64,000 nucleotides of DNA from positions 1-64,000 of the forward strand of contig NZ_STFX01000010.1 in the NCBI RefSeq assembly GCF_005222915.1. Direction: 5' to 3'. Origin of the DNA: Rhizobium sp. FKL33. Lineage in GTDB: Bacteria > Pseudomonadota > Alphaproteobacteria > Rhizobiales > Rhizobiaceae. Positions within the stretch are counted from its first letter, which is position 1, and each line of letters begins with the position of its first letter. A program made the position numbers and the translations under genes. The notes beneath the pieces were generated by a model. The model worked only from the letters and a program-made list of their open reading frames with translations. It was not told the DNA's origin and ran no database searches. This document shows positions 43,279 through 60,529 of the stretch, in pieces.

Positions 43279-43436
43279 GCGGCGCTCCTTTTCGCGTCGC
43301 AACATGTGATGCATGCCGCGTGCCAGTTCGAAAAAGCCTAGGAGTCAGGCGCGATTCTGCGGGTTACGGCGGTCTTCGCCGTTGTTTTCATCATTGCGGT
43401 AAATATGCTGCGCATTATTTGTGCGATTGTCATCAA

Positions 43437-43460
43437 TATGCATATCATATTGTATGCAAT
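43437..43460. promoter_or_regulatory. Likely GntR/FCD operator between divergent genes
   Basis: ATTGTATGCAAT (43449-43460) is a near-perfect palindrome (ATTGTA/TGCAAT) preceded by a related TATGCATATCATAT stretch. FCD-type GntR proteins bind TNGTNNNACNA-like, AT-rich palindromes. It lies in the 261-base region between the ABC operon and the regulator gene. Confidence 0.5.
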
Positions 43461-43539
43461 ATCCGTGTCGGCTGGATGCGATTGCAGGTTCCCCCGAGGT
43501 CGATTTCGCGATAGAAAGACTCTGCACGAAAGAAGCGCC

Positions 43540-44250
43540 ATGAATCTCATCGATAAGAACCTTTTGCTCGACCAGAACCAGGAAGATCGCGCCCAGTCGA
43601 TCCGCGACAGCCTGCGCGATGCGATCATCGATCGCCGTCTGGGGCCGGGCTCGAAACTCGCCGAAGCCGAAGTCGGCGCGCTGTTCGATGTCAGCCGGAC
43701 GGTGGTGCGGTCGGCTTTGCAAATGCTGGCTTACGAAGGGCTGGTGCGGATCGAGCGCAATCGCGGCGCATTCGTCTCCAATCCGACCCCGGAAGAGGCG
43801 CGACAGGTGTTCGACACCCGGCGTCTCATCGAGCCGGGGATCGTGCGCGCGGCAACCGTGCGGATTTCAAAAGCCGATATCGAGGATCTGCGGGATCATC
43901 TAATCCTGGAAGACCGGTTCATGAACGAGCGCGGTCCGGCGGCGCGACGGGCGGAGATCAAGGCGTCAGGCGATTTTCATCTCAAGATCGCCCGGCATTC
44001 CGGCAACGCCATTCTCGAAAAATTCATGGACGAACTGGTGGCCCGTTCGTCGCTGGTAATCGCGCTCTATGGCCGCACCGGCGTTTCCCGCTGCGGCCAC
44101 AGCGAACATCGCGATTTGCTGGACGCCATGGAGCGTGGCGATGCGGACCGCGCCTGCGCTCTGATGCTGCATCACATCGATCATATCGAGGCGGATCTCG
44201 ATCTGCGCGAGGTGGCGGCGATGACGCTGAAGGACGCCCTGGCGACCTGA
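43540..44250 (+). CDS. GntR-family regulator with FCD domain
   Basis: 236 residues. HTH: IRDSLRDAIIDRRLGPGSKL, then LFDVSRTVVRSALQMLAYEG and RNRGAFVSNPTPEEA. The FCD ligand-binding domain carries metal-ligand histidines in KASGDFHLKIARHSGN, HSEHRDLLDAMERGD and MLHHIDHIEADL. Start at 43540 chosen from the family N-terminus with GAAAGAAG before it. Divergent from the ABC-racemase operon, which it likely controls. It converges on the FadB-like gene, 19 bases away. Confidence 0.93.
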   Translation: MNLIDKNLLLDQNQEDRAQSIRDSLRDAIIDRRLGPGSKLAEAEVGALFDVSRTVVRSALQMLAYEGLVRIERNRGAFVSNPTPEEARQVFDTRRLIEPGIVRAATVRISKADIEDLRDHLILEDRFMNERGPAARRAEIKASGDFHLKIARHSGNAILEKFMDELVARSSLVIALYGRTGVSRCGHSEHRDLLDAMERGDADRACALMLHHIDHIEADLDLREVAAMTLKDALAT

Positions 44251-44269: not shown

Positions 44270-46249
44270 TCAGCGGCTTGCGATATACATCGGCCCGCCG
44301 GTATGGGCCGGAAATCCATAGCCGTTGATGAGCACGAGATCGATATCGCTGGCTCGGAGCGCCACCCCGGCATCCAGGAGACGCTGGCCTTCGTCCGCCA
44401 TGGCTTTCAGCAGTCGATCGACAATCTCTTGCTCCGAAAAGCTCTGTGGAGCGATGTTTTTCGAGGCGCGGAGTTCGGCGATGAGCGCGGTCACATCGGC
44501 ATCCACCATGCGTTTGCCGTCGACATATCTGTACCAGCCCAGGCCGTTCTTCTGGCCAAGACGTCCGGCTTCACATAGCCTGTCGGCTGTTTCCACATAG
44601 CGCTCGGCTGGATCGCGCGTCGCCGCCTGCCGCTTGCGTCGCGCCCAGGCGATTTCCAGTCCGGCGAGATCGGAAATGGCGAAGGGGCCCATGGCCATGC
44701 CAAAGGCTTCGATCGCGCCGTCGACCTCATGCGGCTCAGCGCCGTCTTCCACGAGATATTCGGCCTCGCGGCGATAGGCGGAGAAGATCCGGTTGCCGAT
44801 GAAGCCCTCAGTGACACCCGAATAGATCGGCAGCTTGCGCATCGCCTTGGCGACGGCGAAGCCGGTGGCGACCACATCAGGCGCGGATTTCGCGCCGCGC
44901 ACCACTTCCACCAGCCGCATGATATGCGCCGGCGAAAAGAAGTGTAGTCCGAGAATGCGCTCAGGACGGGCGGTCGCAGCGGCAATCACATCGGGATCGA
45001 GATAAGAGGTGTTGGTGGCCAGAATGGCGTCGTCGCGCACGACGCCGTCGAGTCTGCGGAAGAGATCGATCTTGACGTCGAGATCGTCGAACACCGCTTC
45101 GATCACGAGATCGGCGTCGGCCAGAGCGGCGAGGTCGCTGGCGACAGTCAGACGAGCGAGCCGACCCGCATGCGCTGCCGGGTCGATGCGTCCACTCGAC
45201 AGCGCCTTATCGACAAGGCCGGTGATGCGCAGCCGCCCTTTTTCGGCGGCATCCGCCGTCTGTTCGACGACTGTGACGCTAAAACCGGCATCCAGCGCTG
45301 CGACGGCGATGCCCGATCCCATCAGGCCTGCGCCAACCACGCCCAATGTCTGGATCTTCCGCGGCGCCACGCCTTCGAGGCCGGGGATCTTGCCTGCTTC
45401 GCGTTCGGCGAAGAAGACGTGCCGCAAGGCTGCGGATTGCGGCGATTGTTTTAGCTTCAGGAAGGCGGCGCGTTCCTGGGCAAGGCCGTCCGGGAGCGGC
45501 GTCCGGCCTGCGGTTTCGATCAGCGTCACCGCTTCTCCTGGGGCGATCTGGCCTTTTGCCTTCGACAGGACTTTGCGCTTTGCAACTGCGATGTCTTCGT
45601 CGGAAGCAGGGGGAGTAGTCATCTCCCCGGTCTTGCGGAAACGATGGCCAACTGCCTCCGACGCAACGTCGATCGCATGGGCGACGGGGTTTGCGGCGAT
45701 CGCGTCTATGACGCTGAGCGACAGCGCTTCATCCGCCTTGACACTTCGGCCGGAACCGATCAGGTCGATGGCTATGGCTGCGCCGGTCAGTCGCGGCAGG
45801 CGCTGCGTGCCGCCCGCGCCGGGGATCAGACCCAGCTTGACTTCGGGGAATGCGACAGAGGCGCTCAGTGCGGCGATGCGGTAGTGGCAGGCGAGCGCAA
45901 TCTCCAGCCCGCCGCCGAGCGCTGCGCCGTTCAATGCAGCAATGATCGGCTTCGATGAATTTTCGAGCAACTGGCAGACATCGGGCAAGATGGGATCAAC
46001 AGGCGGTTTGTCGAATTCGGTGATATCGGCGCCGCCCACGAAGATCCGCCCGGCGCCTGTCAGAACGACAGCCTTGATTGCAGGATCATTGTGAGCATCG
46101 GCGATGGCTGCAGCAAGTCCCTGCCGCATCGCAAGCGAGGCGGCGTTGACGGGCGGGTTGTCGATGGTGATCACCAGAACGCCGTCCTGCGCCACGCCGC
46201 TGACGCAGATCGAATAGGTTCTCACCGGGTTTGCCGCCGCGTTTGTCAT
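44270..46249 (-). CDS. Bifunctional enoyl-CoA hydratase/3-hydroxyacyl-CoA dehydrogenase (FadB-like)
   Basis: 659 residues. N-terminal crotonase domain with IDNPPVNAAS, both catalytic Glu positions (GGGLEIALACHYRIA and FPEVKLGLIPGAGGTQRLPR) and VFVGGADITEF-like oxyanion text. From about 290, the dehydrogenase: VVGAGLMGSGIAVAALDAGF, catalytic His in LGLHFFSPAHIMRLVEVV, and GFIGNRIFSAY. It performs hydration and NAD-dependent oxidation in beta-oxidation. Start ATG 46249, two bases after the RidA stop. Last gene of the aromatic-CoA operon, it would degrade the ring-opened dicarboxylyl-CoA chain. Confidence 0.92.
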   Translation of the reverse strand: MTNAAANPVRTYSICVSGVAQDGVLVITIDNPPVNAASLAMRQGLAAAIADAHNDPAIKAVVLTGAGRIFVGGADITEFDKPPVDPILPDVCQLLENSSKPIIAALNGAALGGGLEIALACHYRIAALSASVAFPEVKLGLIPGAGGTQRLPRLTGAAIAIDLIGSGRSVKADEALSLSVIDAIAANPVAHAIDVASEAVGHRFRKTGEMTTPPASDEDIAVAKRKVLSKAKGQIAPGEAVTLIETAGRTPLPDGLAQERAAFLKLKQSPQSAALRHVFFAEREAGKIPGLEGVAPRKIQTLGVVGAGLMGSGIAVAALDAGFSVTVVEQTADAAEKGRLRITGLVDKALSSGRIDPAAHAGRLARLTVASDLAALADADLVIEAVFDDLDVKIDLFRRLDGVVRDDAILATNTSYLDPDVIAAATARPERILGLHFFSPAHIMRLVEVVRGAKSAPDVVATGFAVAKAMRKLPIYSGVTEGFIGNRIFSAYRREAEYLVEDGAEPHEVDGAIEAFGMAMGPFAISDLAGLEIAWARRKRQAATRDPAERYVETADRLCEAGRLGQKNGLGWYRYVDGKRMVDADVTALIAELRASKNIAPQSFSEQEIVDRLLKAMADEGQRLLDAGVALRASDIDLVLINGYGFPAHTGGPMYIASR

Positions 46250-46251
46250 GA

Positions 46252-46650
46252 TCAGGCGTCCGGAATGACGGCTGTGGCCTGAATTTCGATCTTGGCGCGA
46301 TCTTCGACCAGCGCCACCACCTGCATGGCGGCCATGGCGGGATAGTGCCGACCGATCGTCTCGCGATAGGCCTGGCCGATGCCCTTGAGATTGCCGAGAT
46401 ATTCCTGCTTGTCGGTGAAATACCATGTCATCGAGGTGATGTGTTTGGGCTCGGCGCCGGCTTCGGCCAGCACGGCCACGACATTCTCCAGCGTCTGGCG
46501 CACCTGGCCGACGAAGTCATCGGTTTCGAACTGGTTCTGGCCGTTCCAGCCGATCTGGCCGCCGACGAAGATCATGCGTCCACGCGCCTCGACGCCGTTG
46601 GCGTAGCCGATGGGCTTGGCCCAGCCTTCAGGTTGCAGGATCGTGTGCAT
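46252..46650 (-). CDS. RidA/YjgF-family enamine/imine deaminase
   Basis: 132 residues, typical RidA size. GYANGVEARGRMIFVGGQIG, the central QTLENVVAVLAEAGAEPKHI and C-terminal ALVEDRAKIEIQATAVIP with the Arg/Glu positions of the active cleft. RidA hydrolyses reactive enamines/imines to ketones and ammonia. Its gene overlaps the thioesterase gene by 23 bases inside an operon whose key enzyme should generate a 2-amino-cyclohexenyl-CoA (an enamine), so it may remove the amino group there; this is inference. Confidence 0.88.
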   Translation of the reverse strand: MHTILQPEGWAKPIGYANGVEARGRMIFVGGQIGWNGQNQFETDDFVGQVRQTLENVVAVLAEAGAEPKHITSMTWYFTDKQEYLGNLKGIGQAYRETIGRHYPAMAAMQVVALVEDRAKIEIQATAVIPDA

Positions 46651-47056
46651 GGTCGGTCTCCAGATGATGGGTCAGCGCGGCGCGGAGGTGATCCGGCCAC
46701 GGGCAGGAAGAATGGGTGTCGAGGGATGTGGCGACCAGCCGATGGCTGGCGGTGAACAGATCGTCGCCGCGCGCCGAGACAGTGTGGTCGAGGTCGAGCG
46801 AGGTGCGTCCGATGCCCGCGACCTTGATGGCAAATTGCAGCAGATCGCCGTGAAAGCCCGGTCGCTTGAAAGTCAGATTGAGGCTCACGGTCGGCGTCCC
46901 CATCCTGAGATCTTCGATCATCGGGCGACGCGGGGCGCCGAGCGCGGCGAAGAACTCCTCGATCGCGCCATCGAGAAGGCGCAGATAAGACGGGTAATAG
47001 GCGATGCCGCTCGGGTCGCAGTCGCCGAAACGCAAGGGCGTGGTATGCTGGAACAT
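46628..47056 (-). CDS. Acyl-CoA thioesterase of the 4-hydroxybenzoyl-CoA thioesterase (4HBT) family
   Basis: 142 residues, hotdog fold. The active-site motif FGDCDPSGIAYYPSYLRLLD has the Asp of the 4-hydroxybenzoyl-CoA thioesterase class (DxxGIxYYP). It hydrolyses aryl- or acyl-CoA thioesters, probably rescuing trapped CoA from dead-end aromatic-CoA esters. Three bases after the acyl-CoA dehydrogenase gene and overlapping RidA. Confidence 0.88.
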   Translation of the reverse strand: MFQHTTPLRFGDCDPSGIAYYPSYLRLLDGAIEEFFAALGAPRRPMIEDLRMGTPTVSLNLTFKRPGFHGDLLQFAIKVAGIGRTSLDLDHTVSARGDDLFTASHRLVATSLDTHSSCPWPDHLRAALTHHLETDHAHDPAT

Positions 47057-47059
47057 CGC

Positions 47060-48229
47060 TCAGCCCGCCTTTATAAGTTCGCGCGCCACGATCAGCTTCT
47101 GCACTTCGGTCGCGCCTTCATAGATCCGGAGTGCGCGGATTTCCCTATAGAGGCTTTCGACGATCTCGCCTGTGCGGACGCCGCGACCGCCGAACAGCTG
47201 CACGGCGCGGTCGATCACGCTTTGCGCCGTCTCTGTCGCGGTCATCTTGGCCATGGCCGCTTCCTTGGTGGTCGGCAGTTTCTGGACATCGCGGCGCCAG
47301 GCGGCGCGATAGGTCAGCAGCGCGGCCGCATCGATGCCGGTCGCCATGTCGCCCAGCGAAGCCTGGGTCAGTTGCAGATCGCCAAGGGTCGCGCCGAACA
47401 TCTTGCGGTTCTTGGCATGCGCAAGCGCCTCATCCAGCGCCCGCCGGGCGAAGCCGAGCGCGGCGGCCGCGACCGAGGCGCGGAAAATGTCGAGCGTGCG
47501 CATGGCGATCTTGAAGCCTTCGCCCGGCGCGCCGAGCCTGCGCGACGCCGGAATGCGGCAGCCGTCGAAGCGGATGGTGGCGAGCGGATGCGGCGCGATC
47601 ACGTCGATACGCTCAGCGATCGAGAAGCCGGGATCATCGGCGAAAACCACGAAAGCCGAGATGCCGCGCGTGCCCGGGGCTTCGCCGGTGCGGGCGAAGA
47701 CGGTGTAGACATCGGCGATGCCGCCATTGGAAATCCAGGTCTTTTCGCCGTCGAGCACATAGCTGTCGCCATCCTCGCGCGCAGCGCAGGCCATGGCGGC
47801 GACATCGGAACCGGCTTCCTTTTCCGACAGTGCGAAGGCGGAGATCCATTCGCCTGAGGTCACTTTTTGAAGAACGGCGGCTTTCAGCTCGTCCGATCCC
47901 GAGAGACCGATCGCGCCTGTGCCCAGGCCCTGCATGGCAAAGGCGAAGTCGGCGAGACCGTCATGCCAGGCAAGCGTTTCGCGCGCGAGGCACACCGAGC
48001 GAGAGTCGATTGCAGTTTTGCCCGCGTCGCCGGTGGCAAGGCCCAGAAGCCCTACCTCACCCAGCCGCCTGACGAGGTCGCGGCAGGCATTGTCGGTGTC
48101 ATGGTGATCGACAGACGCCAGTGCGCCGCTTGCGGCGAATGCGTCCAGCCGTTCCGCGACGGCGCGATGTTCCGAACCGAAAAATGGCCAGTCGAGATGG
48201 TCGCGGGTGGGGCCTGTAAGCGTCGACAT
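47060..48229 (-). CDS. Acyl-CoA dehydrogenase
   Basis: 389 residues. FAD-binding segments [18 protein letters not shown] and [19 protein letters not shown], and the catalytic Glu in [19 protein letters not shown]-terminal helices include [20 protein letters not shown]. The flavoenzyme introduces an alpha,beta double bond into an acyl-CoA and passes electrons to ETF. Its ATG shares a base with the crotonase gene stop. In this operon it may act on a cyclohexane- or pimelyl-type CoA intermediate. Confidence 0.92.
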
Positions 48230-49080
48230 CAGTTGCCCTCGTAGACAGGCTTGCGCTTGGCGGCGAAGGCCTCGAAGGCGCGGCGGAAATCGCCTGTCGC
48301 CATGCAGATCGCCTGCGCCTGGGCTTCGGATTCGATCATTTCATCGATGCCCATCGCCCATTCCTGGTTCAGCATGGTCTTGGTGACGCCATGGGCGAAC
48401 CAGGGGCCATCGGCGATCGAACGCGCGAGATCCGCCGCTGCTTTATCCAGATCTTCGGCGGCATGCAGGCGATTGAAGAAGCCCCAGCGTTCGCCTTCCT
48501 CGGCGCTCATGAAGCGGCCGGTATAGAGCAGTTCCGCGGCGCGTCCCTGACCGATGATGCGCGGAAGAATGCCGCAGGCGCCCATATCGGCGCCGGCGAG
48601 ACCGACGCGGGTGAACAGAAACGCCGTCTTGGCCTCAGGCGTTGCCAGCCGGAGGTCCGAGGCCATGGCGAGGATCGCGCCCGCGCCGGCGCAGATGCCG
48701 TCGATGGCGGCGACGATCTGCTGCGGGCATTTCTTCATCGCCTTGACGAGATCGCCGGTCATGCGGGTGAAGGCCAGGAGGTCCGGCATTTTCATGCGCG
48801 TCAGCGGCTCAATGATCTCGAACACGTCGCCGCCAGACGAGAAATTGCCGCCCGCGCCCTTGAGAATGATCGTCCTGACATCGGAGGCGTAAGCGAGATC
48901 GCGGAAGAGATCGCGTAGTTCCGCATAGCTTTCGAAAGTCAGCGGGTTCTTCTTGTCCGGCCGGTTCAGCGTCAGCGTCGCCACCCGTCCGTCGCCGTCG
49001 GCGGACCACAAGAAATGCTTGGGGGCATAGTCTCGGAAGGGGCGGAGATGGCCGCTCATGCTCGCCTGTTCGTTGCTCAT
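48229..49080 (-). CDS. Crotonase-superfamily protein (enoyl-CoA hydratase-like) lacking canonical glutamates
   Basis: 283 residues with the crotonase fold: [20 protein letters not shown], oxyanion-hole [10 protein letters not shown] and [19 protein letters not shown]. The two Glu used by hydratases are replaced (Ile in AGAILAM, Thr in FTRVG); an Asp lies in [15 protein letters not shown]. It may therefore be a lyase, isomerase or ring-opening hydrolase like BadI/MenB relatives, not a plain hydratase. Overlaps the SDR gene by four bases. Confidence 0.88.
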
Positions 49081-49862
49081 CCTGTCATGACCTCTCCGCC
49101 GGCGATGGCGATCGCCTGGCCTGTGATTGCATCTGCGCCGGGCGACGCGAGCCAGAGAACCGCGTCCGCCACCTCTTCCGGCTTCACCAGCCGCCCTTGC
49201 GGATTGGACTTGGTGAATTCGGCCAGCGCCTGTTCTTCCGTCCGGCCGGTCTTGGCGACGATTTCGGCGATCGAGCGGGCGATAATCGGCGTATCGGTAA
49301 ATCCAGGGCAGACGGCGTTAACGGTCACGCCCTTCTTGGCGAGCTCCAGCGCCAGTGACCGGGTCAGGCCGACCACGCCATGCTTCGCCGCGCAATAGGC
49401 CGAGACATAGGCATAGCCGGTGAGCCCCGCGGTCGAGGCGACATTGACGATGCGCGCGCCCTTGCCGAACGCCTTGAGATCGGTAAGCGTCGCCTGCGTG
49501 ACGTTGAAGACGCCGGTGAGATCCACCGACAGGACATGTGTCCACATGTCGAGCGTCGTCTTCTCGAACGGCGCGCTCGGCGCCTCGCCGGCATTGTTGA
49601 CGAGGATGCTCACGGGGTCAAAGGCGGCGCGGGCAGTCTCCAGACCTGCCGCAATCGCCTTGGGATCCGTCACGTCGAACCCGGGCAGCACGAGGGTGAC
49701 GCCTTCGGGGAAATCCCGCGCCAACGCTTCCAGCGGCTCCCGGCGACGGCCTGCCAACGTGACCCTCGCGCCGGCCTGCACGAGACTGCGCGCGATGGCC
49801 GCGCCGATGCCGCTGCCGGCGCCGGTGACGAGAGCGTGACGTCCTTCAAGTGGAGACGACAT
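49077..49862 (-). CDS. SDR-family 3-hydroxyacyl-CoA-type dehydrogenase
   Basis: 261 residues, classical [26 protein letters not shown] after the second strand, VNNAGEAPS, catalytic Ser in [11 protein letters not shown] and Tyr/Lys in [11 protein letters not shown]-terminal [12 protein letters not shown]. In 2-aminobenzoyl-CoA degradation clusters similar dehydrogenases handle hydroxy-cyclohexane-CoA intermediates. Three bases after the monooxygenase/reductase gene. Confidence 0.9.
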
Positions 49863-49865
49863 CGC

Positions 49866-52190
49866 TTACTTCGCTCCGCCGGCGGTCTGCTGGGCGCGAA
49901 CGAGATTGGTCTCGTATTGCGCCTTGCCGGAGTAATACTGCTTCGGCCAAGGCACCGAGTGAAGCCCGATCTTGGCGGCTTCATGCAGCGCCCAGGCCGG
50001 ATCGGCGAGATGCGGACGGGCGACCGCGCAGAGATCGGCGCGGCCAGCCGCAATGATCGAATTGGCGTGGTCGGCTTCCGAGATTGCGCCCACGGCAATG
50101 GTGGGGATGCCGACTTCGTTGCGGATCTTGTCGGAGAAAGGCGTCTGGAACAGACGGCCGTAAACGGGCTTTTCCTCCTTCCAGACCTGACCGGACGAGC
50201 AGTCGATCATGTCGGCGCCGGCTTCCTTGAACATCGCGGCGAAGATTGCGGCGTCCTCGGGCGTGTTGCCGCCGTCGAACCAGTCATGGCAGGACAGGCG
50301 CACCGATATCGGCTTGTCCTCCGGCCAGACCTCCCGGATGGCCTTGAAGACTTCCAGCGGATAGCGGGCGCGGGCGGCGTGATCGCCGCCATATTCGTCG
50401 GTGCGGCGATTGGTGAGCGGCGACAGGAAGCTCGACAGCAGATAGCCATGCGCGCAATGGAGTTCGAGCCAGTCGGCGCCGGTGGTCGCGGCCAGTTGCG
50501 CGGCGCGGACATGGTCCTGCAGCACCCGGTCGAGATCGGCGCGATCCATCGCCTTCGGCGTCTGGCTATGCTTGAGATAGGGAAGGGCGGAGGCTGACAT
50601 TAGCGGCCATGAACCCTCTTCGAGCGGCTGGTCGATGCCGTCCCAGGCGAGCTTGGTCGCGCCCTTGCGGCCGGCATGGCCGATCTGGATGCCGACCTTG
50701 GCGGGCGAATTGAAATGCACGAATTCCACAAGCCGCTTCCAGCCGTCCGCTTGCTCCTCGTTCCAGAGACCGAGGCAGCCGGGCGTGATCCTGCCATCCG
50801 GCGAGACGCAGGTCATTTCGCCAAACACGAGGCCGGCGCCGCCCATGGCGCGCGAGCCGAGATGGACGAGATGGAAATCGTTGATCAGGCCGTCCTTGGC
50901 CGAATACATCGCCATCGGCGACATCACCACGCGGTTCGGCAGCGTCACGTTGCGGACCGTGAAGGGCGTGAACATCGGCGGCAGGCAGCGGTCGTTCGCC
51001 GCAGCTGGGAGGCCGGCCTTGCGGGCGAACCAGCGCTCATAGCCTTCGAGCCAGTTCTTGTCGCGGAGACGCAGATTTTCATGGCTGATGCGCTGCGAAC
51101 GGGTCAGCATCGAATACATGAACTGCTCGGGCTCCAGCGTGTCGGCGTAGCGGCGGCCGACCACTTCGAACCATTCCATGGCGTTGCGCGCCGCGTTCTG
51201 GATGCGGGCGACATCGACACGGCGGATCTCTTCATAGCTCGCGAGAACGGCAGGGATCTTTGCCTTGTCGTGGCCGGCCTTGTTGAACTGGTTGGTCAGT
51301 TCGATCGCGTCGTCGATGGCGAGCTTGGTGCCCGAGCCGATGGCGAAATGGGCGGTATGGGCGGCGTCGCCCATCAGCACGACATGGGAATTGCCGTTGA
51401 AATGGCTCCACTTGCCGCAGATCAGGCGATTGAAATTGAGCCAGGCCGATCCGCGCAGATGCCGCGCATTGGTCATCAGTTCGGCGCCTTCCAGCACCTC
51501 TGAGAACAGGTCTTGGCAGAAATCAATCGAGCCCTGCTGATCGAGCGCGCCCAACCCATGCTTCTCATAGGCTTCTTCGGTGGTTTCGACGATGAAGGTC
51601 GAGGTCTGGTCGTCGAACTTGTAGATGTGCGCCTGGAACCAGCCATGGTCCGTCTTGCGGAAATCGAAGGTGAAAGCGTCGTAGAGTTTGTTGGTGCCGA
51701 GCCAGATATAGCGGTTCGGCCGCGTGACGAGATCTGGCTGGAAGACTTCAGGATAATGATTGCGGACCTTGGAATTGAAGCCGTCGGAGGCGATGATCAG
51801 GTCGGCGTCCGGGAAGTCGAGGTCGCTGTCGACGTCGGTTTCGAACTTTAGTTCGACTCCGAGCGCTTCGCAGCGGCGCTGCAGGATGTTGAGCAGCTTC
51901 TTGCGGCCGATGCCGACAAAGCCATGGCCGGTTGTGCGCTGGCGCGTGCCCTTGAACAGGACTTCGATATCGTCCCAATGGTTGAAGGCGTCCTGGATTT
52001 CGGCGGCGCTTTCCGGATCCCAGACCTTCATTGCCTGCATGGTGGCGTCGGAAAACACCACGCCCCAGCCGAATGTGTCATAGGGGCGGTTGCGCTCGAC
52101 CACGGTGATGGAATGCGACGGGTCGAATTTCTTCATCAGCAGGCTGAAATAGAGCCCGGCGGGGCCGCCGCCAATACATACGATCCGCAT
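49866..52190 (-). CDS. Fused FAD monooxygenase/Old Yellow Enzyme: 2-aminobenzoyl-CoA (or salicylyl-CoA) monooxygenase/reductase type
   Basis: 774 residues. N-terminal half (about 1-395) is a FAD hydroxylase: [32 protein letters not shown], and [21 protein letters not shown]-terminal half (about 405-765) is an OYE/NADH:flavin reductase: [38 protein letters not shown] with the His pair, and NRRTDEYGG. In Azoarcus evansii this fusion hydroxylates and reduces 2-aminobenzoyl-CoA, dearomatising the ring; the close salicylyl-CoA 5-hydroxylase shares the first half. First gene of a seven-gene beta-oxidation-like operon, preceded by two copies of the TTTTAA-NN-TTAAA palindrome. Confidence 0.92.
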
Positions 52191-52231
52191 TTCGGTTCCC
52201 TCTTTCCCATCGAGAGCATGTCGCTCTAATA

Positions 52232-52245
52232 TTTTAAGATTAAAG
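52232..52245. promoter_or_regulatory. Shared palindromic operator, copy 1 (ring-reduction operon)
   Basis: TTTTAAGATTAAAG, matching TTTTAA-NN-TTAAA, lies 42 bases upstream of the monooxygenase/reductase ATG on the minus strand. The same form occurs at 52298, 55047 and 62138. Confidence 0.65.
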
Positions 52246-52297
52246 TAAATTGACGGACTGCGTCTGTCAATGCGGCGACATCGCCCTTGCGCAGATA

Positions 52298-52311
52298 TTT
52301 TAACATTAAAA
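52298..52311. promoter_or_regulatory. Shared palindromic operator, copy 2 (perfect)
   Basis: TTTTAACATTAAAA is embedded in the perfect palindrome ATATTTTAACATTAAAATAT (52295-52314), 66 bases centre-to-centre from copy 1. Two sites in one promoter suggest cooperative repression of the operon starting at 52190. Confidence 0.7.
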
Positions 52312-52385
52312 TATCGAAACGTAAGACGGTCGAAAGCCGCCCGGAAACATACGCGGGCGGCTGATGCTCGGATTGTGAACCCGGG

Positions 52386-53621
52386 TCAGGCAGCGAGTTT
52401 TTGCAGATAGGCGTCTGCCTCTTCCGGAACCGCGAACCACGGGAAAAAGTCGCGGGGATCGTTGAAGCCGTTGGCGATGCGCTTTGCCAATGCCGGGAAG
52501 GCCTGCGCCGAGCCCATGATGTTGAGCACATGCGGCGGAGGCGGCTGCAGCAGCGCATTGGTCCAGCCCACGACGAACTGCGCATAGGCCCAATAACTGT
52601 CGAACGCGCCTTGCATGAAGGCGGCGTCGAAGGGCCGGTCTTCCTGCGCGAGAATGGCGTCGAGATAGGCTTTCGCCGCCTTCGACGCGTTGTTCGAGCC
52701 CTGGCCGGTGATGGGATCGTTGAGGCAGACCGCATCGGCCATTCCCAGCACCAACGCGCCCGATGGCAGGCGACCGATCGGCTTGCGCACTGTGGGGGCA
52801 AAAGCGCCGGACAATACGCCATTGGCGTCAGTGAGGCTGATGTCCCGGCAGCGCTCCGCCTCCCAGGGCAGGAAGGTCTCCAGCACCCATTCCGATCGCG
52901 CCAGATGCGCCTCCGGCGATGTCACGTCCTTCCAGCAATCCATGGGGCCGCCGGGAATGCCTTCGAACACCATGATGTCGCAGGGACCGCTGACCGTCAG
53001 CGCCGGAAACACGAAATATTCACCCACCGTCGGAATGAGATTGAAGTTGACGGCGGAATGATCCGGCCGGGGTTGCATGCCATGCACATAGGTCAGCGCC
53101 AGCGCCCGCTGCGGCTTGTCGAAGGGTGATTTCTCCGGGTCGCGTTCAAACAGGCGGGCAATATCGCCCTTGCCGGCGGCGGCGATGACGAGATCCGAGT
53201 TTTTGGCATAGGCTTCGAGATCGTCGATGCCGGCGTCATGAATGCTGAGATTGCCGCCACGCCGCGAAAACTCCTCCATCCAGCGCGGAATTTTCACCCG
53301 TTGGTCGACGCTCTGCGCAGGCTTGTCGAGCTTGCCGTTCCAGTCCAGCGCTTTGCCGGAGCCATCGGGGGCGGGGACGCAGAAGTTGATGGACTCGACG
53401 GTCGGGCACTCCCCAACCCAGAAATTCAGGCCGATGTCGCGCTCGTTCTGCAAGGCGGCGTCGAACATGCATTGGCTCGACAGGACCTTGCCGTTGCGGA
53501 TTTCGTCGGCGCTGCGGTTCTGAATGATATCGACTTCATAGCCGTGGCCCAGCAGGGCGCAGCCGAGCTGCAAGCCGGATTGGCCGCCGCCGACGATGGT
53601 GATCTTGCGTGATGCGCTCAT
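52386..53621 (-). CDS. StyA-like flavin monooxygenase (indole/styrene monooxygenase, oxygenase component)
   Basis: 411 residues (StyA about 415). FAD-binding KITIVGGGQSGLQLGCALLG, internal AYAKNSDLVIAAAGKGDIAR, and the second FAD motif VLGMADAVCLNDPITGQGSN, as in group E two-component monooxygenases (StyA, IndA/IifC). They use reduced FAD supplied by a reductase to epoxidise styrene or indole. The flavin reductase gene is two genes upstream in the same operon with an SDR in between, the composition of indole-oxidising iif/ind clusters. Ribosome site GAGGGA. Last gene of its operon; 195 regulatory bases follow. Confidence 0.92.
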   Translation of the reverse strand: MSASRKITIVGGGQSGLQLGCALLGHGYEVDIIQNRSADEIRNGKVLSSQCMFDAALQNERDIGLNFWVGECPTVESINFCVPAPDGSGKALDWNGKLDKPAQSVDQRVKIPRWMEEFSRRGGNLSIHDAGIDDLEAYAKNSDLVIAAAGKGDIARLFERDPEKSPFDKPQRALALTYVHGMQPRPDHSAVNFNLIPTVGEYFVFPALTVSGPCDIMVFEGIPGGPMDCWKDVTSPEAHLARSEWVLETFLPWEAERCRDISLTDANGVLSGAFAPTVRKPIGRLPSGALVLGMADAVCLNDPITGQGSNNASKAAKAYLDAILAQEDRPFDAAFMQGAFDSYWAYAQFVVGWTNALLQPPPPHVLNIMGSAQAFPALAKRIANGFNDPRDFFPWFAVPEEADAYLQKLAA

Positions 53622-53660
53622 AGTCTAGTTCCCTCTTTTTTGATTGATGATCAGGCGCGT

Positions 53661-54446
53661 TCATTCCATGAGTTTGGGGATGGCTGGCACATTCTGCTCC
53701 GGGCCCATGGCGGTGTAGCCTCCGTCGACGCGGATATCGGTGCCGGTGATGAAGCTGGCATTGTCGGAGAGCAGGAAGGCCACCGCTTCGCCCACTTCGG
53801 CGCCGTCGCCTGTGCGACCGAGAAGATGGAAGGGCGCGGCGACCGCATCGGTCTTGGCGCGGTCATTGCCGGTCAGTTGCACCATGATGTTGCTCCAGGT
53901 CCAGCCGGGAGAGACGGCGTTGACGCGGATGTCGTCGGGCGCCAGATCCATGGCCTGATTGCGCGTCAATTGCAGGATGGCGGCTTTCGACACCGGATAG
54001 ACCCAGCGGCCGGTTTGTGCGACACGGGCGGAAATCGAGCCGAAATTGACGATCGCGCCCTTGTTGGCCTTGAGATGCGGCCGCGCCGCCTGCATCAGCA
54101 TCACCGAGCCGACGATGTTGATGTCCAGCGCCTTCAGCCAATCCGCTCGGCTCGTTTCTGCGCCATTGTCGAGATAGGTGCAGGCGACGTTGACCAGGAA
54201 GTCGAGACGCCCCGTCTGTTCGACGGCGCCGGCGACCAGGGCCGCGACATCGGCGTCGCTGGTGACGTCGGTGCGGATGAAAGACGCCTGCGGGCCAAGT
54301 TCCGCAACGGCCGAGTTGCCCCCGTCTTCATCGATATCGGCGATCACGACTTTGGCGCCGTAACCGATCAATGTCGCCGCCACGGCGCGGCCGATCAAGG
54401 TCGCTCCGCCGGACAGAATTGCTGTTTTCCCTGCCAATCCACGCAT
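53661..54446 (-). CDS. SDR dehydrogenase of the StyA-like operon
   Basis: 261 residues. The cofactor loop is unusual, ILSGGATLIGRAVAATLIGY instead of TGxxxGIG, but VVIADIDEDGG, the NVACTYL segment, Ser in GSISARVAQ and Tyr/Lys in YPVSKAAILQLTR are in place, with TGTDIRVDGGYTAM at the end. In indole-oxidising clusters an SDR converts the hydroxylated indole intermediate. The ATG at 54446 follows AAGGGGAA; upstream in-frame residues have no family match. Confidence 0.9.
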   Translation of the reverse strand: MRGLAGKTAILSGGATLIGRAVAATLIGYGAKVVIADIDEDGGNSAVAELGPQASFIRTDVTSDADVAALVAGAVEQTGRLDFLVNVACTYLDNGAETSRADWLKALDINIVGSVMLMQAARPHLKANKGAIVNFGSISARVAQTGRWVYPVSKAAILQLTRNQAMDLAPDDIRVNAVSPGWTWSNIMVQLTGNDRAKTDAVAAPFHLLGRTGDGAEVGEAVAFLLSDNASFITGTDIRVDGGYTAMGPEQNVPAIPKLME

Positions 54447-54498
54447 GATGTTCCCCTTTTCTTGATGCGGATGCTGGTGTTTGCTGTGGTCTTGAACC

Positions 54499-54993
54499 TC
54501 ACGCCGCCGCGAGCGTCGTGGTGAACTGGCCCGCCACATAGACGAGCGGCTCGGCGTCCGCGGCTTCGATGAGCGTGCGGCGAACGCTGCCGATCAGGAT
54601 GACATGGGTGGCGAATTCCACCGCCTGTTCGAGCTGGCAATCGAAGGCGGCGATTGCGCCTTCCAACACCGGCGCGCCGGTTTCCGCCGTTCGCCAGGCG
54701 CCGATATTGAAGCGTTCGCCGGCGGCAAGCGCCGTTCGGCCTGCAAAGGTTTCGGCCACATCCTGCTGCGTCCGCGAGAGAATGTTGACACAGAAGGCGC
54801 CGCTGAGCGGGGCGACCTGGCCGACCCAGGTCTCCCGGTTGATGCAGGCGACAACTGAGGGCGGGTCTGCCGTCAGCGAGCAGACGGCTGTGGCGGTGAC
54901 GCCGCGCCATTCGCCATCGGGCGTGCAGGCGGTCACCACCGTCACTGCGCCTGCCACCTGCCGCATCGCTCTTCGAAATTCGTCTTTGTCCAT
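54499..54993 (-). CDS. Flavin reductase (NADH:FAD, StyB/HpaC type)
   Basis: 164 residues. MDKDEFRRAMRQVAGAVTVV, then RGVTATAVCSLTADPPSVVA, CINRETWV and FCVNIL are the flavin-reductase domain signature. It would supply reduced FAD to the StyA-like oxygenase. ATG at 54993 has a perfect GGAGG site; a longer start at 55047 would overlap the operator. First gene of the minus-strand operon reductase-SDR-oxygenase and divergent from the AraC gene. Confidence 0.92.
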   Translation of the reverse strand: MDKDEFRRAMRQVAGAVTVVTACTPDGEWRGVTATAVCSLTADPPSVVACINRETWVGQVAPLSGAFCVNILSRTQQDVAETFAGRTALAAGERFNIGAWRTAETGAPVLEGAIAAFDCQLEQAVEFATHVILIGSVRRTLIEAADAEPLVYVAGQFTTTLAAA

Positions 54994-55046: not shown

Positions 55047-55060
55047 TTTTAAATTTAAAC
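55047..55060. promoter_or_regulatory. Shared palindromic operator, copy 3 (reductase/AraC divergent promoter)
   Basis: TTTTAAATTTAAAC fits TTTTAA-NN-TTAAA, 54 bases upstream of the flavin reductase ATG in the 186-base divergent region with the AraC-type gene. Confidence 0.6.
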
Positions 55061-55179: not shown

Positions 55180-56160
55180 ATGTCGCCTTCAGACACGCCG
55201 CTGTCCCGATTTGTCGCCGTCGACACGCGCTCGGCCGATGAGGCGCGAGACGCCGTGGGCCGCATCTTTTGCCCGCATTTCCTGAGCCCGCTCGGTCGCG
55301 CCGATCAGGGTTTCCACGCTCGCCATCATTCTGCGCCGCAGACGGGCTATTCGGTGAACTTTGTTTCCTACGGCGCCGATGTGGACATCGATCCGGGAGA
55401 ACTCGAACGTTTCTATCTGGTCCAGCTTCCGCTTCGTGGGCAGGCGCGGGTCCGTTGTGGCACGCTCGCGGTCGAGGCTGACGCCGGACGCCGCGCGTCT
55501 ATCCTCTCGCCAACTCTTTCGACGCGGATGACTTGGAGCGAAGGCTGCGAAAAGCTGATCGTGCTGATCGATCGCGAGGCTTTGGAAACACAGTTCGAAA
55601 GCCTGACGTATGAGGCCCGCCGCTCCGTTCAATTCAACACTGGGATCGACTTCGAAACGCCTTCGGGTATGGCCGTGGGACGTCATGCGGAGATGATGTT
55701 GGCTGCGGCGGAAGCAGGGGCCGCCATGCCGGACGCCTATCGGGTTTTGTTGCGGGATGGCTTGATCACGCTGCTCTTGACCAGCCAGCCGAGCAGCGTT
55801 TCCTGGGTCTTTTCACGACCTGCGCGTGGCGCCGATCCGATCGCGGTGCGGCGCGCCCAGGATTTTATGGCGGAGAATGCCCATCGCGCCATCGCCATGG
55901 CCGATATAGCCGAGGCGGCGGGCACACCCTTGCGGTCTCTCCAGGACGCCTATCGCAAGGCGCGGGGCGTGACGCTGTCCGAAGGGTTGTTGTCGCTGAG
56001 GCTCGATCTGTTCCGCGCCTCACTCCTGTCACGCGACAAGACCTGTTCGGTGGCGGAGGCTGCATTTACGGCTGGTTTCGGCCATCTCGGACGCGCCGCT
56101 GCCGCCTATCGCCAGCGTTTCGGCGAAGCGCCGTCCGACACGGTCAGACGGCGCTCCTGA
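55180..56160 (+). CDS. AraC-family transcriptional regulator
   Basis: 326 residues. N-terminal AraC-binding-like domain (about 15-180; GYSVNFVSYGADVDIDPGEL and FYLVQLPLRGQARVRCG) of the type found in aromatic-pathway activators, and a C-terminal double HTH: MADIAEAAGTPLRSLQDAYR and SVAEAAFTAGFGHLGRAAAA followed by YRQRFGEAPSD. It probably activates the divergent reductase-SDR-oxygenase operon in response to an aromatic inducer. ATG at 55180 preceded by GAGAAAG; a TTG at 55138 is less likely. Confidence 0.92.
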   Translation: MSPSDTPLSRFVAVDTRSADEARDAVGRIFCPHFLSPLGRADQGFHARHHSAPQTGYSVNFVSYGADVDIDPGELERFYLVQLPLRGQARVRCGTLAVEADAGRRASILSPTLSTRMTWSEGCEKLIVLIDREALETQFESLTYEARRSVQFNTGIDFETPSGMAVGRHAEMMLAAAEAGAAMPDAYRVLLRDGLITLLLTSQPSSVSWVFSRPARGADPIAVRRAQDFMAENAHRAIAMADIAEAAGTPLRSLQDAYRKARGVTLSEGLLSLRLDLFRASLLSRDKTCSVAEAAFTAGFGHLGRAAAAYRQRFGEAPSDTVRRRS

Positions 56161-56167
56161 TCCCGGC

Positions 56168-56761
56168 TTATTCGGCGGGCTTCTTCGGATCCCAGAGCTT
56201 GGTTTCTGCGGTCTTCTCGTAAGCCATGCCATTGGGATAGCTGATCGCCTCGAATTGCAGGCCCCAGGGCGCCTGGAAATAGAGGATGGTCTGGCCAGCG
56301 GCCGGGCCTTCGGAGATCGGGATGGGACCAAGCCGCGTCGCGACACCCTTGGAATCGAGATAGGCCTTGGCGGCGGCGACATCATCGACATAGAAGGCGA
56401 TGTGGAAGGCGCCGATATCGCTGTTCTTCTGCTTGATTTCCTTCTGGTCCGGAGCGGCGTATTCGAATAGTTCAATATTTGAGCCGAAGCCGCAGCGCAT
56501 CAGGGTGATCTGCTTGATCACGGTCTTGGGATCGACGCCGAGCGCGTCCTCCATGAATTTGCCCTTGTCATCGCCGATCGGGCCGAAGGACATGGCCTTC
56601 TTGCAGCCGATGACATTGGAGAAGAAGTCCACGGCCTGTTCGAGATTGGGCACGGTCACGCCGGTATGATCATGGCCGCGCACGCCCGGGATCATGTCGG
56701 CCTTTGCCGCCGTCGCCCCGAGCAAAGATAAAATCGCTGCGCTGAAAATGCTGATCTTCAT
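56168..56761 (-). CDS. Secreted VOC (glyoxalase/dioxygenase-fold) protein
   Basis: 197 residues. Signal peptide MKISIFSAAILSLLGATAAK, cleavage after KA. Two VOC half-modules: GHDHTGVTVPNLEQAVDFFS and GAFHIAFYVDDVAAAKAYLD, with LYFQAPWGLQFEAISYPNG providing a possible third ligand. Metal ligands H, H, E are plausible. Periplasmic VOC proteins are uncommon; the role may be ligand binding or isomerisation. The ATG at 56761 is chosen for spacing from GAGGGG. It follows the dipeptide-type operon by 112 bases on the same strand and converges on the AraC gene. Confidence 0.85.
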   Translation of the reverse strand: MKISIFSAAILSLLGATAAKADMIPGVRGHDHTGVTVPNLEQAVDFFSNVIGCKKAMSFGPIGDDKGKFMEDALGVDPKTVIKQITLMRCGFGSNIELFEYAAPDQKEIKQKNSDIGAFHIAFYVDDVAAAKAYLDSKGVATRLGPIPISEGPAAGQTILYFQAPWGLQFEAISYPNGMAYEKTAETKLWDPKKPAE

Positions 56762-56873
56762 GGTCATTCCCCTCTGATTGCGGGCAAGGCGTCGCACTTC
56801 ACCGGAACCCGCGTTTCCGGCGTGGCGTGAGTTGGAATGGATCCATGCGACGGCCGCGAGCGCGGCCGGGTGT

Positions 56874-57707
56874 TCAGGCGTCTTCGACCAGGCTTTCGCG
56901 CTGGAGCCAGTCGGGATCGATTTCCGGCAGCGGAATGGCGTCGAGAAGGGCGCGGGTATAAGCCGTGCGCGGCGCAGAGAAGACCTGCTCGCAAGGACCT
57001 TCCTCGACCACCTTGCCGAACCGCATCACATAGACACGGTCACAGACCGCACGGATGACCGAGAGGTCGTGGCTTATGAAGGCCATGGCGAGCCCGAGAT
57101 CACGGGAGAGATCCTTGAGCAGATTCAAGACCTGCGCCTGGGTCGAGACGTCGAGGCCGGAGACGATCTCATCGGCCAGCACGAAATCGGGCCGAAGCAG
57201 CGCGGCGCGGGCGATGCCGATACGTTGGCGCTGGCCGCCCGACAGTTCATGAGGGCTGCGCTCCAGCACGATCCTGGGCAATGTAACCCGGTCTAGGATG
57301 TCCAGAACGAGTTTTTCCGCCTGCCTGCCGTCCTGCGCCAAGCCATGCAGCAGCAGCGGCTCGACGAGAATGCGGCGGATCGAGTGGCGCGGGTTGAGGG
57401 AGGCCATCGGGTCCTGGAAGATCATCTGCATGCGTCGGCGCAGAGGCCGCGTCTGCTGGTCGGGCAGATGGGTAATGTCGGCGCCGTCGAAGCGGATCTC
57501 GCCCGCGGAGACATCGACAAGCCGCAGCAAAGCCCGGCCCAACGTGGTCTTGCCCGAACCGGATTCGCCGACAATGCCGACGGTCTCGCCGCGTCCAACG
57601 GTGATGTCGACGCCATGCAGTACGCGATGGCCGGGGCTGCGGATGAGGCCGCGGCCCGCGCCATAGGTGACTTCAATGCCTCGGGCGACAAGCAGGTTTT
57701 CGGTCAT
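56874..57707 (-). CDS. Dipeptide-type ABC transporter ATPase (DppF-like), second system
   Basis: 277 residues. Walker A GESGSGKTTLGRA, Q-loop IFQDPMASLNPRHS, signature LSGGQRQRIGIARA, Walker B FVLADEIVSGLD (Ile for Pro), H-loop FISHDLSVIRA. It is shorter than DppF of the first system, lacking the C-terminal cysteine cluster. ATG overlaps the DppD-like stop by four bases. End of the second importer. Confidence 0.9.
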   Translation of the reverse strand: MTENLLVARGIEVTYGAGRGLIRSPGHRVLHGVDITVGRGETVGIVGESGSGKTTLGRALLRLVDVSAGEIRFDGADITHLPDQQTRPLRRRMQMIFQDPMASLNPRHSIRRILVEPLLLHGLAQDGRQAEKLVLDILDRVTLPRIVLERSPHELSGGQRQRIGIARAALLRPDFVLADEIVSGLDVSTQAQVLNLLKDLSRDLGLAMAFISHDLSVIRAVCDRVYVMRFGKVVEEGPCEQVFSAPRTAYTRALLDAIPLPEIDPDWLQRESLVEDA

Positions 57708-58567
57708 CGGCTGATTCCGATCTCGGCGCGGAGTTGTTCGAACACGCTTTGCGGCACCGGCTCCAGCCCGGCGTCTGGCCGGTCGTAGCGTGGGCCGGCG
57801 GCGATCAGCGCCTGGGTGTAGATATGCCGCGGCGTCGTCAGCACCTCGGCGGTCGATCCCTGTTCGATCACCTTGCCGGCATAGAGCAGCGTGACGCTGT
57901 CGCAGATCTGGGCGACGACGCCGAGGTCATGGGTGACGAAGATCACGCCGGTGCCATGGGCCTGCTGCATGGATCGGATCAGGCGGAGGATCTGCTTCTG
58001 CACGGTCACATCGAGCGCGGTGGTCGGCTCATCGGCGATGACCAGCTTGGGTTCGAGCGCAAAGGCGTCGGCGATCAGCACGCGCTGGCGCATGCCGCCG
58101 GAGAGCTCATGCGGATAGCTGCGCAGCACCCGTTCGGGGTCGCGGATATGCACTTCTTCCAGAAGTTTCGCCGCGCGGTCATGGGCCTCGCGGATCGACA
58201 GCCCCCGCCGCATCCTGAGCCCATCGGTCAGTTGCGCTTCGATGCGCCGACCCGGATTGAGCGCCGTTTGCGGATCCTGCGGGATCAGCGAGATTTCGCT
58301 GCCCATGATCTTGCGGAGTTCGTGCGCCGGCAGCGTCAAGAGATCGCGGCCTTCGAAGCGGATCGCGCCGCCGGTGATGCGCACCGTGCGGGGCAGAATG
58401 CCGAGCAGCGCCTTGGCGATGGTGGACTTGCCGGCGCCGCTTTCGCCCACGAGTCCGCGGACTTCGCCGCGCGTCAGGGTGAGCGAGACGTCGCGAAGAA
58501 TGGGCGCGCCGTTTTCGCGTTCGGAGACGGCCGACAGACCGGTAATGGAGAGGAGCGGATCGGTCAT
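57704..58567 (-). CDS. Dipeptide-type ABC transporter ATPase (DppD-like), second system
   Basis: 287 residues. Walker A GESGAGKSTIAKA, Q-loop LIPQDPQTALNPGR, signature LSGGMRQRVLIADA, Walker B LVIADEPTTALDVT, H-loop FVTHDLGVVAQ. The C-terminal Opp/Dpp extension is shortened. Overlaps its neighbours by four bases on both sides. Confidence 0.9.
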   Translation of the reverse strand: MTDPLLSITGLSAVSERENGAPILRDVSLTLTRGEVRGLVGESGAGKSTIAKALLGILPRTVRITGGAIRFEGRDLLTLPAHELRKIMGSEISLIPQDPQTALNPGRRIEAQLTDGLRMRRGLSIREAHDRAAKLLEEVHIRDPERVLRSYPHELSGGMRQRVLIADAFALEPKLVIADEPTTALDVTVQKQILRLIRSMQQAHGTGVIFVTHDLGVVAQICDSVTLLYAGKVIEQGSTAEVLTTPRHIYTQALIAAGPRYDRPDAGLEPVPQSVFEQLRAEIGISR

Positions 58568-59412
58568 CGGCGCATCATCGGGTCAAGGGCGCGGCGCAGG
58601 CCGTCGCCGAGTTGATTGAAGGCGAGCACGGTGAGAAACAGCATCACGAGCGGCGCGAGCAGCACCCACCAGCCCTGATAGATGATCGTGCGTCCCTGCG
58701 CGATCATCGCGCCCCAGGTCGGCGTATCGGAAGACACCGACAGGCCGACGAAGGACAGGATAGCCTCGACGATCACCGCGATGCCCATTTCCAGGCTGAT
58801 CAGCGCGATGATGACAGGCGCGACATTCGGCAGGATTTCCTTGAGCAGGATATGCAGCCTAGAAAAGCCGATCGTCCGGGCCGCCGTGACATAATCCAGT
58901 TGCGCCTGCGCCAGCGTCTCGGCGCGGACGACGCGACAGAAGCGCGTCCAGTCGATGATGACGATGGCTGCGATGACCGAATGCACGCCCGAGCCGAGCA
59001 CGGCGACCAGCAGGATCGACAGCAGCACCGGCGGAAACGCCATCCAGATATCGACCAGCCGGGAAATCACCAGATCGACCCAGCCGCGATACCAGCCGGC
59101 GAGAAGCCCGAGCAGTGAGCCGAGAAGTGCGGCAAGCCCGGCGGCGACAAAGGCGACAAGCAAAGCGATGCGCGCGCCGTGGATGACGCGGGACAACACA
59201 TCGCGGCCGAGATCGTCGGTGCCGAGCCAGTAGCCGGGCTCAGCGCCGTCCATGCCGGCAGGCGGCAAGGTTCCGAGCATCAGATCCTGTTCCAGCGGAT
59301 CCTTCGGCGCGATCCACGGGGCAAACAGCGCCAGCACGATGAGCAACAGAATGAAGCCGCCGCCGAAGATGACCTTCGGCTCCTTCAAGAGAGCGCGGAG
59401 CGACTTAGCCAT
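58564..59412 (-). CDS. Dipeptide-type ABC transporter permease (DppC-like), second system
   Basis: 282 residues. First helix KVIFGGGFILLLIVLALFAP, periplasmic loop with WLGTDDLGRDVLSRVIHGAR, coupling loop TIGFSRLHILLKEILPNVAP. DppC type. Its start overlaps the DppB-like stop by eight bases. Confidence 0.92.
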   Translation of the reverse strand: MAKSLRALLKEPKVIFGGGFILLLIVLALFAPWIAPKDPLEQDLMLGTLPPAGMDGAEPGYWLGTDDLGRDVLSRVIHGARIALLVAFVAAGLAALLGSLLGLLAGWYRGWVDLVISRLVDIWMAFPPVLLSILLVAVLGSGVHSVIAAIVIIDWTRFCRVVRAETLAQAQLDYVTAARTIGFSRLHILLKEILPNVAPVIIALISLEMGIAVIVEAILSFVGLSVSSDTPTWGAMIAQGRTIIYQGWWVLLAPLVMLFLTVLAFNQLGDGLRRALDPMMRR

Positions 59413-60418: not shown

Positions 60419-60496
60419 GAAAATTTGAGCCTCAGGCGCGACGACCCAGCGCGCGGCCGGCATGCGGCGCGCCTCCAGGCCAAAGAGCGGGTAAAA

Positions 60497-60522
60497 GGTC
60501 CGGGCGATTTCCCGCCCGGACC
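60497..60522 (-). other. Stable hairpin behind the second peptide-binding-protein gene
   Basis: GGTCCGGGCG (60497-60506) and CGCCCGGACC (60513-60522) form a perfect 10-bp stem with a 6-base loop, starting 7 bases after the binding-protein stop and followed on the minus strand by TTTTA. It can act as a partial terminator or 3' stabiliser that favours the binding protein over the permeases. Confidence 0.7.
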
Positions 60523-60529
60523 TCTTCAA

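Follow-up and report, generated by a model that had tools for sequence, protein, structure and literature searches.

In the aerobic pathway of Azoarcus/Aromatoleum evansii, a 2-aminobenzoate-CoA ligase reportedly makes the 2-aminobenzoyl-CoA on which 2-aminobenzoyl-CoA monooxygenase/reductase (ACMR) acts. For indole, the available passages of a 2018 review describe the iif/ind genes of Acinetobacter O153 and Cupriavidus SHE, with a two-component oxygenase, an SDR and a flavin reductase; in Cupriavidus SHE these genes convert indole to anthranilate, which then enters a 2-aminobenzoyl-CoA cluster, and the status of isatin in aerobic indole degradation, as a genuine intermediate or as a dead end, is listed there as an open question (PMC6221969). 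The iad loci of Variovorax, Bradyrhizobium and Achromobacter attack indole-3-acetate with a Rieske dioxygenase and a CoA ligase, and their intermediates include dioxindole, isatin and isatinic acid. Their reported end product is anthranilic acid, and iadA/iadB, homologues of IorA/IorB, count among their hallmark genes yet are given no step in the passages covered (PMC9613470, PMC12633357). Here, a window of 64,000 nucleotides from Rhizobium sp. FKL33 (contig NZ_STFX01000010.1, G000:C2:1-64000) was analysed, together with the contig to its right, for a locus in which genes of an iif/ind type lie beside those of an ACMR pathway.

The locus probably encodes aerobic degradation of indole via isatin into the 2-aminobenzoyl-CoA pathway, with neither free anthranilate nor a ligase taking part, as judged from gene content, conservation and linkage. 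In the proposed pathway, a StyA-family oxygenase and its flavin reductase would oxidise indole at C2/C3, and a first SDR (SDR1) would yield 3-hydroxyindolin-2-one (dioxindole), which would become isatin through a CrtO-like FAD enzyme or air. An isatin hydrolase (IH) would open the ring to give isatinate (2-aminophenylglyoxylate, an alpha-keto acid), and IorAB, using CoA, would carry out its oxidative decarboxylation to 2-aminobenzoyl-CoA and CO2. ACMR would then hydroxylate and reduce the ring, and its product would be deaminated, opened and beta-oxidised by the products of the RidA, SDR2 and hydratase/dehydrogenase genes. Such a route would need neither an aryl-CoA ligase nor anthranilate dioxygenase, and would pass through neither free anthranilate nor catechol. 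Every one of these reactions is proposed rather than observed, most tentatively the formation of isatin, the IorAB step and the order of events after ACMR.

On the minus strand of the window lie two neighbouring units, flavin reductase-SDR1-indole monooxygenase (IMO) and then ACMR-SDR2-hydratase-dehydrogenase-thioesterase-RidA-FadB-like, the latter reaching down to 44270. The open frames listed in a sequence-only reading of this DNA were recovered at the same positions, and so were the StyA-like oxygenase, SDR and flavin reductase that it had described (Smoa_sbd, SDR and PF01613 domains, respectively). IMO (52386..53621, minus strand) is the oxygenase component, a StyA-family, group E flavoprotein. 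Among PDB entries it is closest to 7z4x/7z94 (E=5e-183) and far less similar to styrene monooxygenase A (3ihm, E=3e-36); 7z4x is presumably the Variovorax indole enzyme VpIndA1. The indole fingerprint of group E enzymes is given as S46-Q48-M50-V/I73-I76-A96 in the part of PMC13101512 that was covered. IMO has S, Q, M, V and I in register and is thus of the indole type at five of the six positions, with L at the ungapped place of position 96, where a possible intervening indel leaves the register unsure. The first three residues are S-Q-M and not the N-V-H of the styrene monooxygenase fingerprint. Additionally, the NCBIfam styrene equivalogs stay below their cut-offs (StyA 220 versus 550 bits, StyB 80 versus 200 bits). 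The preference of the sequence-only reading for indole over styrene is supported, and the enzyme appears to be a monooxygenase of indole and not of styrene.

SDR1 (53661..54449, minus strand) occupies the position of IifB and may dehydrogenate an indole dihydrodiol, and the flavin reductase (54499..54993, minus strand; PF01613) is the partner of IMO; both were scanned as longer frames (starts 54539 and 55047). Oxygenase, reductase and SDR thus stand side by side as in iif/ind clusters. A divergent AraC-type regulator follows (55180..56160, plus strand), whose nearest NCBIfam model, AndR, scores 162 bits, below the cut-off of 350. Related IMO loci, 67 in all, were collected by a peptide-pattern scan of a species genome collection, which was not exhaustive; the closest named relative among the matches is from Rhizobium sp. 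SG_E_25_P2 (98% identical). SDR1 has a match in 63 of these loci and the AraC-type regulator in 62. A regulator of this type also accompanies the homologous genes of Pseudomonas WHOP (PMC12538310, in the part covered). In contrast to the iif/ind systems, the locus has IH and IorAB, and no IifA-like gene was recognised beside the IMO operon, a search in which no reference IifA sequence was used.

The fused FAD-monooxygenase/OYE of the anthranilyl-CoA route, as the sequence-only reading had called it, matches NF006101 with 1346 bits (cut-off 1078), a model that is itself named for salicylyl-CoA 5-hydroxylase/oxidoreductase. By sequence, this flavoprotein (49866..52190, minus strand) is of the ACMR type. 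Downstream, on the same strand, are SDR2 (49077..49862), which adjoins ACMR in Rhodobacterales loci too, an enoyl-CoA hydratase family gene (48229..49080; NF006107, 486 bits, cut-off 330), an acyl-CoA dehydrogenase (47060..48229), a 4HBT-family thioesterase with relatives in other loci (46628..47056), a RidA-family enamine/imine deaminase (46252..46650; PF01042), and a FadB-like enoyl-CoA hydratase/3-hydroxyacyl-CoA dehydrogenase (44270..46255). The thioesterase and RidA genes had been overlooked in the sequence-only reading, and since they fill 46252-47056, 46255 is a likelier start of the FadB-like gene than 46426. Its mention of full beta-oxidation genes was also too strong: no thiolase was seen among the frames scanned in the window and its right flank. 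A RidA gene is present in 19 of the 25 loci that contain an ACMR start, and RidA is a candidate for taking off the ring amino group after ACMR. The fused enzyme and the beta-oxidation genes are shared with Azoarcus/Aromatoleum evansii; here, the substrate of ACMR is proposed to come from isatinate and not from a ligase.

Right of the window, the contig was examined from 60000 to 79999. The isatin hydrolase that the sequence-only reading had expected beyond 64000 is there, at contig 69623-70408 on the minus strand. This cyclase-family protein has a PDB match to 4j0n (E=6e-123); further isatin hydrolases there match at 7e-90 or better, and kynurenine formamidases at 2e-6 or worse. Isatin hydrolases are marked by the metal motif HxG[T/A]HxDxPxH and by GLAS/GLQC, according to the part of PMC6117287 that was covered. 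Both the metal motif and GLAS are directly visible in the protein, which, on this sequence evidence, is an isatin hydrolase. It thus has the family, metal motif and GLAS of isatin hydrolase B from Labrenzia aggregata (PDB 4j0n/4m8d; PMC6117287, same part), and differs from it in sitting within an indole/ACMR gene set.

Between the two parts lies a gene pair that the sequence-only reading had not mentioned, although IorA starts inside the window, and that is a likelier link to ACMR than a ligase. IorA (62393..64546, plus strand, 536 codons within the window) has a TPP domain and a C-terminal 4Fe-4S motif, and IorB (contig 64557-66116, plus strand) scores 721 bits with NF006179 (cut-off 348). 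With TPP domain, POR gamma domain and Fe-S motif, the pair has the features of the 2-oxoacid:acceptor oxidoreductase superfamily. However, IorA reaches only 285 bits with the IOR alpha equivalog TIGR03336 (cut-off 650.9). Neither IorA nor IorB matched a PDB sequence, and an AlphaFold model made for IorA (from the L055 sequence, with 7 rows) was set aside because of its low mean pLDDT of 47.5. Members of the superfamily to which IorAB belongs convert 2-oxoacids to acyl-CoA by oxidative decarboxylation. Because isatinate is an alpha-keto acid, IorAB is likely to be the link to ACMR, and formation of 2-aminobenzoyl-CoA by IorAB would explain an ACMR unit without a ligase. On balance, it is somewhat more likely than not that this IorAB subfamily is an isatinate:acceptor oxidoreductase (2-aminobenzoyl-CoA forming), which would be the shared exit of the indole (IMO) and indole-3-acetate (iad) routes, leading from isatin directly to aerobic, CoA-dependent ring reduction. 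Right of IorB follow a DapA-like protein, Crt1 (contig 67958-69583, minus strand), IH and Crt2 (contig 70630-72267, plus strand). The two Crt genes encode CrtO-like enzymes (Crt1 a FAD enzyme) with putative functions, and their position suggests a part in the step from dioxindole to isatin.

The association of these genes was observed directly in other genomes. Within 10 kb of IMO, on contigs that often end early, ACMR is found in 26 of the 67 loci, IorA in 23 and IH in 13, while gene order and orientation vary among Rhizobiales, Rhodobacterales and Actinomycetota. The adjacency of ACMR and IMO is therefore not due to chance. Three loci from actinobacteria carry the row Crt1-IH-IorA-IorB and, divergent from it, SDR1-IMO-IMO-flavin reductase. 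Whole-genome searches covered 49 genomes with a related IMO, from 50 of the 67 loci (L054 and 17 loci, with many short contigs, were left out). IH (E<=1e-30) is present in 46 of them, IorA in 45 and ACMR in 47. In all 45 genomes that have both, IH and IorA lie on one contig, separated by 15 bp to 17.6 kb (median 3.9 kb), a count that omits three weak IH matches of 38-39% identity (two in G143 and one in G131).

A second comparison used an order sample of 121 genomes, including the window genome. IorA was present in 14 of the 14 other genomes with an IH of at least 50% identity versus 12 of the 106 without (Fisher p=1.4e-11, which is only a guide because the genomes are related to each other; the limits of 50% for IH and 70% for IorA were chosen after the numbers had been seen). 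In ten of those 14 genomes, IH and IorA are at most 30 kb apart on one contig, which is not the case in G013, G017, G085 and G100. IorA proteins of the subfamily have at least 54% identity in this sample and are separate from the remaining matches, at most 32% identical.

A shared promoter motif was also observed directly. The window contains four copies of the AT-rich palindrome TTTTAAnnTTAAA (at 52232, 52298, 55047 and 62138), against none in 100 shuffles. Two copies, TTTTAAnnTTAAA(A), precede ACMR (52232..52311), one precedes the flavin reductase-SDR1-IMO operon (55047..55059, plus strand), and one lies about 75 bp before the likely start of OppA at 62065 (62138..62151). Across 66 related loci (1.23 Mb), there are 29 copies of the slightly shorter form TTTAAnnTTAAA: 19 before ACMR, four before the flavin reductase, four at the OppA start, one about 250 bp before IH and one elsewhere. 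It stands 34-128 bp upstream of ACMR in 16 of the 25 related loci that contain an ACMR start, a promoter count that left out L013, which overlaps L014. Since the palindrome is common to the promoters of IMO, ACMR and Opp, the genes for indole oxidation, ACMR and transport appear to form a single regulon. The gap of 195 bp between the IMO and ACMR operons contains two of the copies, so these look like two adjacent transcription units and not one. The joining of the upper and lower parts put forward in the sequence-only reading is supported as a functional one. Compared with iif/ind, the upper and lower genes of the window are side by side and have a common promoter motif.

Several side observations concern the same loci. 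The palindrome is found 67 bp before IorA in L140, in a genome without a close IH. L013 and L014 overlap on one contig, at whose start there is an inverted duplication that may be an assembly artefact. Of the 67 loci, 20 have a RutA-like luciferase-family monooxygenase (for instance, L014 12487-14229 and L034 12032-13752), in most cases accompanied by a flavin reductase of its own; in 12 of them, it lies between IMO and ACMR. It may act on a lactam or amide of the indole pathway; it was considered as a replacement for IifA and rejected as a required step, the window genome having only relatives of 28-29% identity. A DLH-family (dienelactone hydrolase) protein, about 411 aa long and SnoaL-like in its C-terminal part, adjoins the IMO operon in six loci, all proteobacterial (L052, L053, L056, L057, L064 and L076), and is absent from the window; as a guess, it may be of the IifA type. 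Tandem pairs of differing IMO genes are present in actinobacterial L047, L058, L071 and L062, the second gene being 45-52% identical to the window IMO, and these may form hetero-oligomers or differ in substrate.

Both a CoA ligase and an anthranilate dioxygenase were sought in the window genome. The benzoate-CoA-ligase family TIGR02262 has 11 matches genome-wide, none above the cut-off of 375.25 and none on this contig (best 251 bits), and the nine larger frames right of the window, up to contig 78068, contain no ligase. The sequence-only reading's expectation of an aminobenzoate-CoA ligase beyond 64000 or elsewhere thus found no candidate above cut-off. This cut-off is not an ideal yardstick by itself, since the ACMR-adjacent ligases of relatives themselves score only 332-376 bits; 251 bits is below these as well. 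Additionally, identity between the window-genome candidates and the ligases of relatives with which they were compared does not exceed 34%, and one of these ligases (in L164) is beside ACMR. In line with the sequence-only reading, nothing in the genome exceeds the cut-off for anthranilate dioxygenase. The four Rieske large subunits of the genome are all on other contigs; just one of them has a small-subunit gene within the sequence examined, and it scores best as a benzoate dioxygenase. This benzoate 1,2-dioxygenase type set (contig C12:134237-134785) has a large subunit of 747 bits against a cut-off of 781 and a small subunit over its cut-off.

The sequence-only reading had left indole and indole-3-acetate open as substrates. 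Indole is retained, whereas indole-3-acetate is less likely as the direct substrate: the iad-type Rieske gene, with the L130 copy as query, matched only L130, L131 and L132 among the loci compared, and not the window locus. L130 and L132 each combine a Rieske oxygenase with an SDR (in L130, there is an AMP-binding ligase as well), and fit iad-type auxin loci passing through isatin; L131 is similar, but its IH is 27 kb away. L130 and L132 share IH (49-50% identity) and IorAB (76-77%) with the indole loci, which is what both routes would need after isatin.

An unlikely, though by no means negligible, alternative is that indole is converted to free anthranilate, by decarboxylation of isatinate or cleavage of 3-hydroxyindolin-2-one, and that an AMP-forming ligase outside TIGR02262 feeds ACMR, while IorAB does something else. 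Such a route is reported for Cupriavidus sp. SHE in the covered passages of PMC6221969, and the 11 weaker ligase matches would offer candidates for it. It has to contend with the low scores and identities of these candidates, with IorA and IH staying together in 45 of 45 genomes, and with ten of the 47 ACMR genomes that have IorA and no ligase at E<=1e-80 (one of them, G167, with only 24 of 63 candidates scored). The two ACMR genomes without IorA (G154 and G160) both have a ligase-family gene beside ACMR, and every ACMR genome among the 49 has either IorA or such an adjacent gene. It is improbable that IorAB is instead an ordinary indolepyruvate oxidoreductase, which would make indoleacetyl-CoA from tryptophan-derived indolepyruvate and have no direct link to isatinate. 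The family name and the nearest NCBIfam models favour that assignment, whereas the IorA score far below the IOR alpha cut-off, the clear separation of its subfamily, the near-perfect linkage to IH and the lack of an aminotransferase beside IorAB among the frames scanned all argue against it. A substituted indole (skatole, or a halogenated or methylated indole) as the upper substrate, with the same isatin-type lower steps, is very doubtful. A separate group E branch does act on skatole, yet it is without the indole fingerprint and at most 40% identical to the reported styrene/indole enzymes (PMC13101512, in the part covered). The window IMO has the indole residues at five positions, and a C3 substituent would block isatin formation. 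Styrene epoxidation, with phenylacetaldehyde oxidised by an aldehyde dehydrogenase further right, is scarcely credible: StyA family membership would allow it, and the StyD models do match an aldehyde dehydrogenase at contig 74513-76027, with scores that stay below their cut-offs (295 of 850 and 270 of 800 bits). A styrene pathway was nevertheless rejected, given the model scores and fingerprint residues of IMO and the presence of IH and ACMR in the same conserved set.

Some observations weigh against the proposed route from isatinate to 2-aminobenzoyl-CoA. In 21 of the 47 ACMR genomes, ACMR has a ligase-family gene no more than 15 kb away, so that it may be fed from anthranilate there. The iad segment iadC-K2, apparently without iadA/iadB, yields anthranilic acid according to the covered passages of a 2025 preprint (PMC12633357); isatinate can therefore reach anthranilate without IorAB. 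In the IorA tree, the isatin-linked proteins do not form one clade, and 12 of the order-sample genomes without an IH of 50% identity have a subfamily IorA of 54-68% identity, in L139, L141 and L142 beside TRAP transporter genes. The IorA subfamily may thus use other 2-oxoacids. In G153, G156 and G165, IH is only 52-55% identical, and the IH-IorA pair more probably belongs to an iad locus, which counts for the link between IH and IorA and hardly for that with indole. G160 (Arthrobacter) has IH without IorA, and four actinobacterial IH relatives are without the GLAS/GLQC signature (in that comparison, rows L009 and L093 are one gene). Finally, the genome is a draft (5.3 Mb, 60 contigs, 98.2% complete), and its state was counted on this side. 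As a separate observation, IorAB stands beside TRAP genes (DctP or DctM by Pfam) with no IH nearby in L136, L139, L141 and L142, and the L136 genome has an IH elsewhere.

The remaining neighbours are a VOC/glyoxalase-like protein (56168..56797, minus strand) and an Opp/Nik-type ABC transporter (OppF, D, C, B and binding protein; 56874..62224, minus strand), both conserved, and a GntR-family regulator (43405..44250, plus strand) for which just two of the 67 loci, this one and its nearest relative, L011, gave a match. This regulator and the palindrome are not conserved together. Genes were called by homology and a third-position GC caller, as greedy longest-frame calls were misleading in high-GC loci; the GC caller overlooked the FadB frame in the window.

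A route from indole to 2-aminobenzoyl-CoA has been reported for Cupriavidus SHE, and the joining proposed in the sequence-only reading is therefore not new as a route. No paper was found that assigns IorAB to isatinate, or that names isatin hydrolase together with indolepyruvate, in a search that left most subscription papers outside its reach and is weak evidence of novelty. The new part would be the IorAB isatinate step, the kind of pathway being already known. If IorAB does form 2-aminobenzoyl-CoA from isatinate, the reaction bears both on the question of whether isatin is an intermediate of aerobic indole degradation and on the role of iadA/iadB in auxin degradation. An ATP-consuming ligase step would be saved, and the intermediates would be kept inside the cell as CoA esters.

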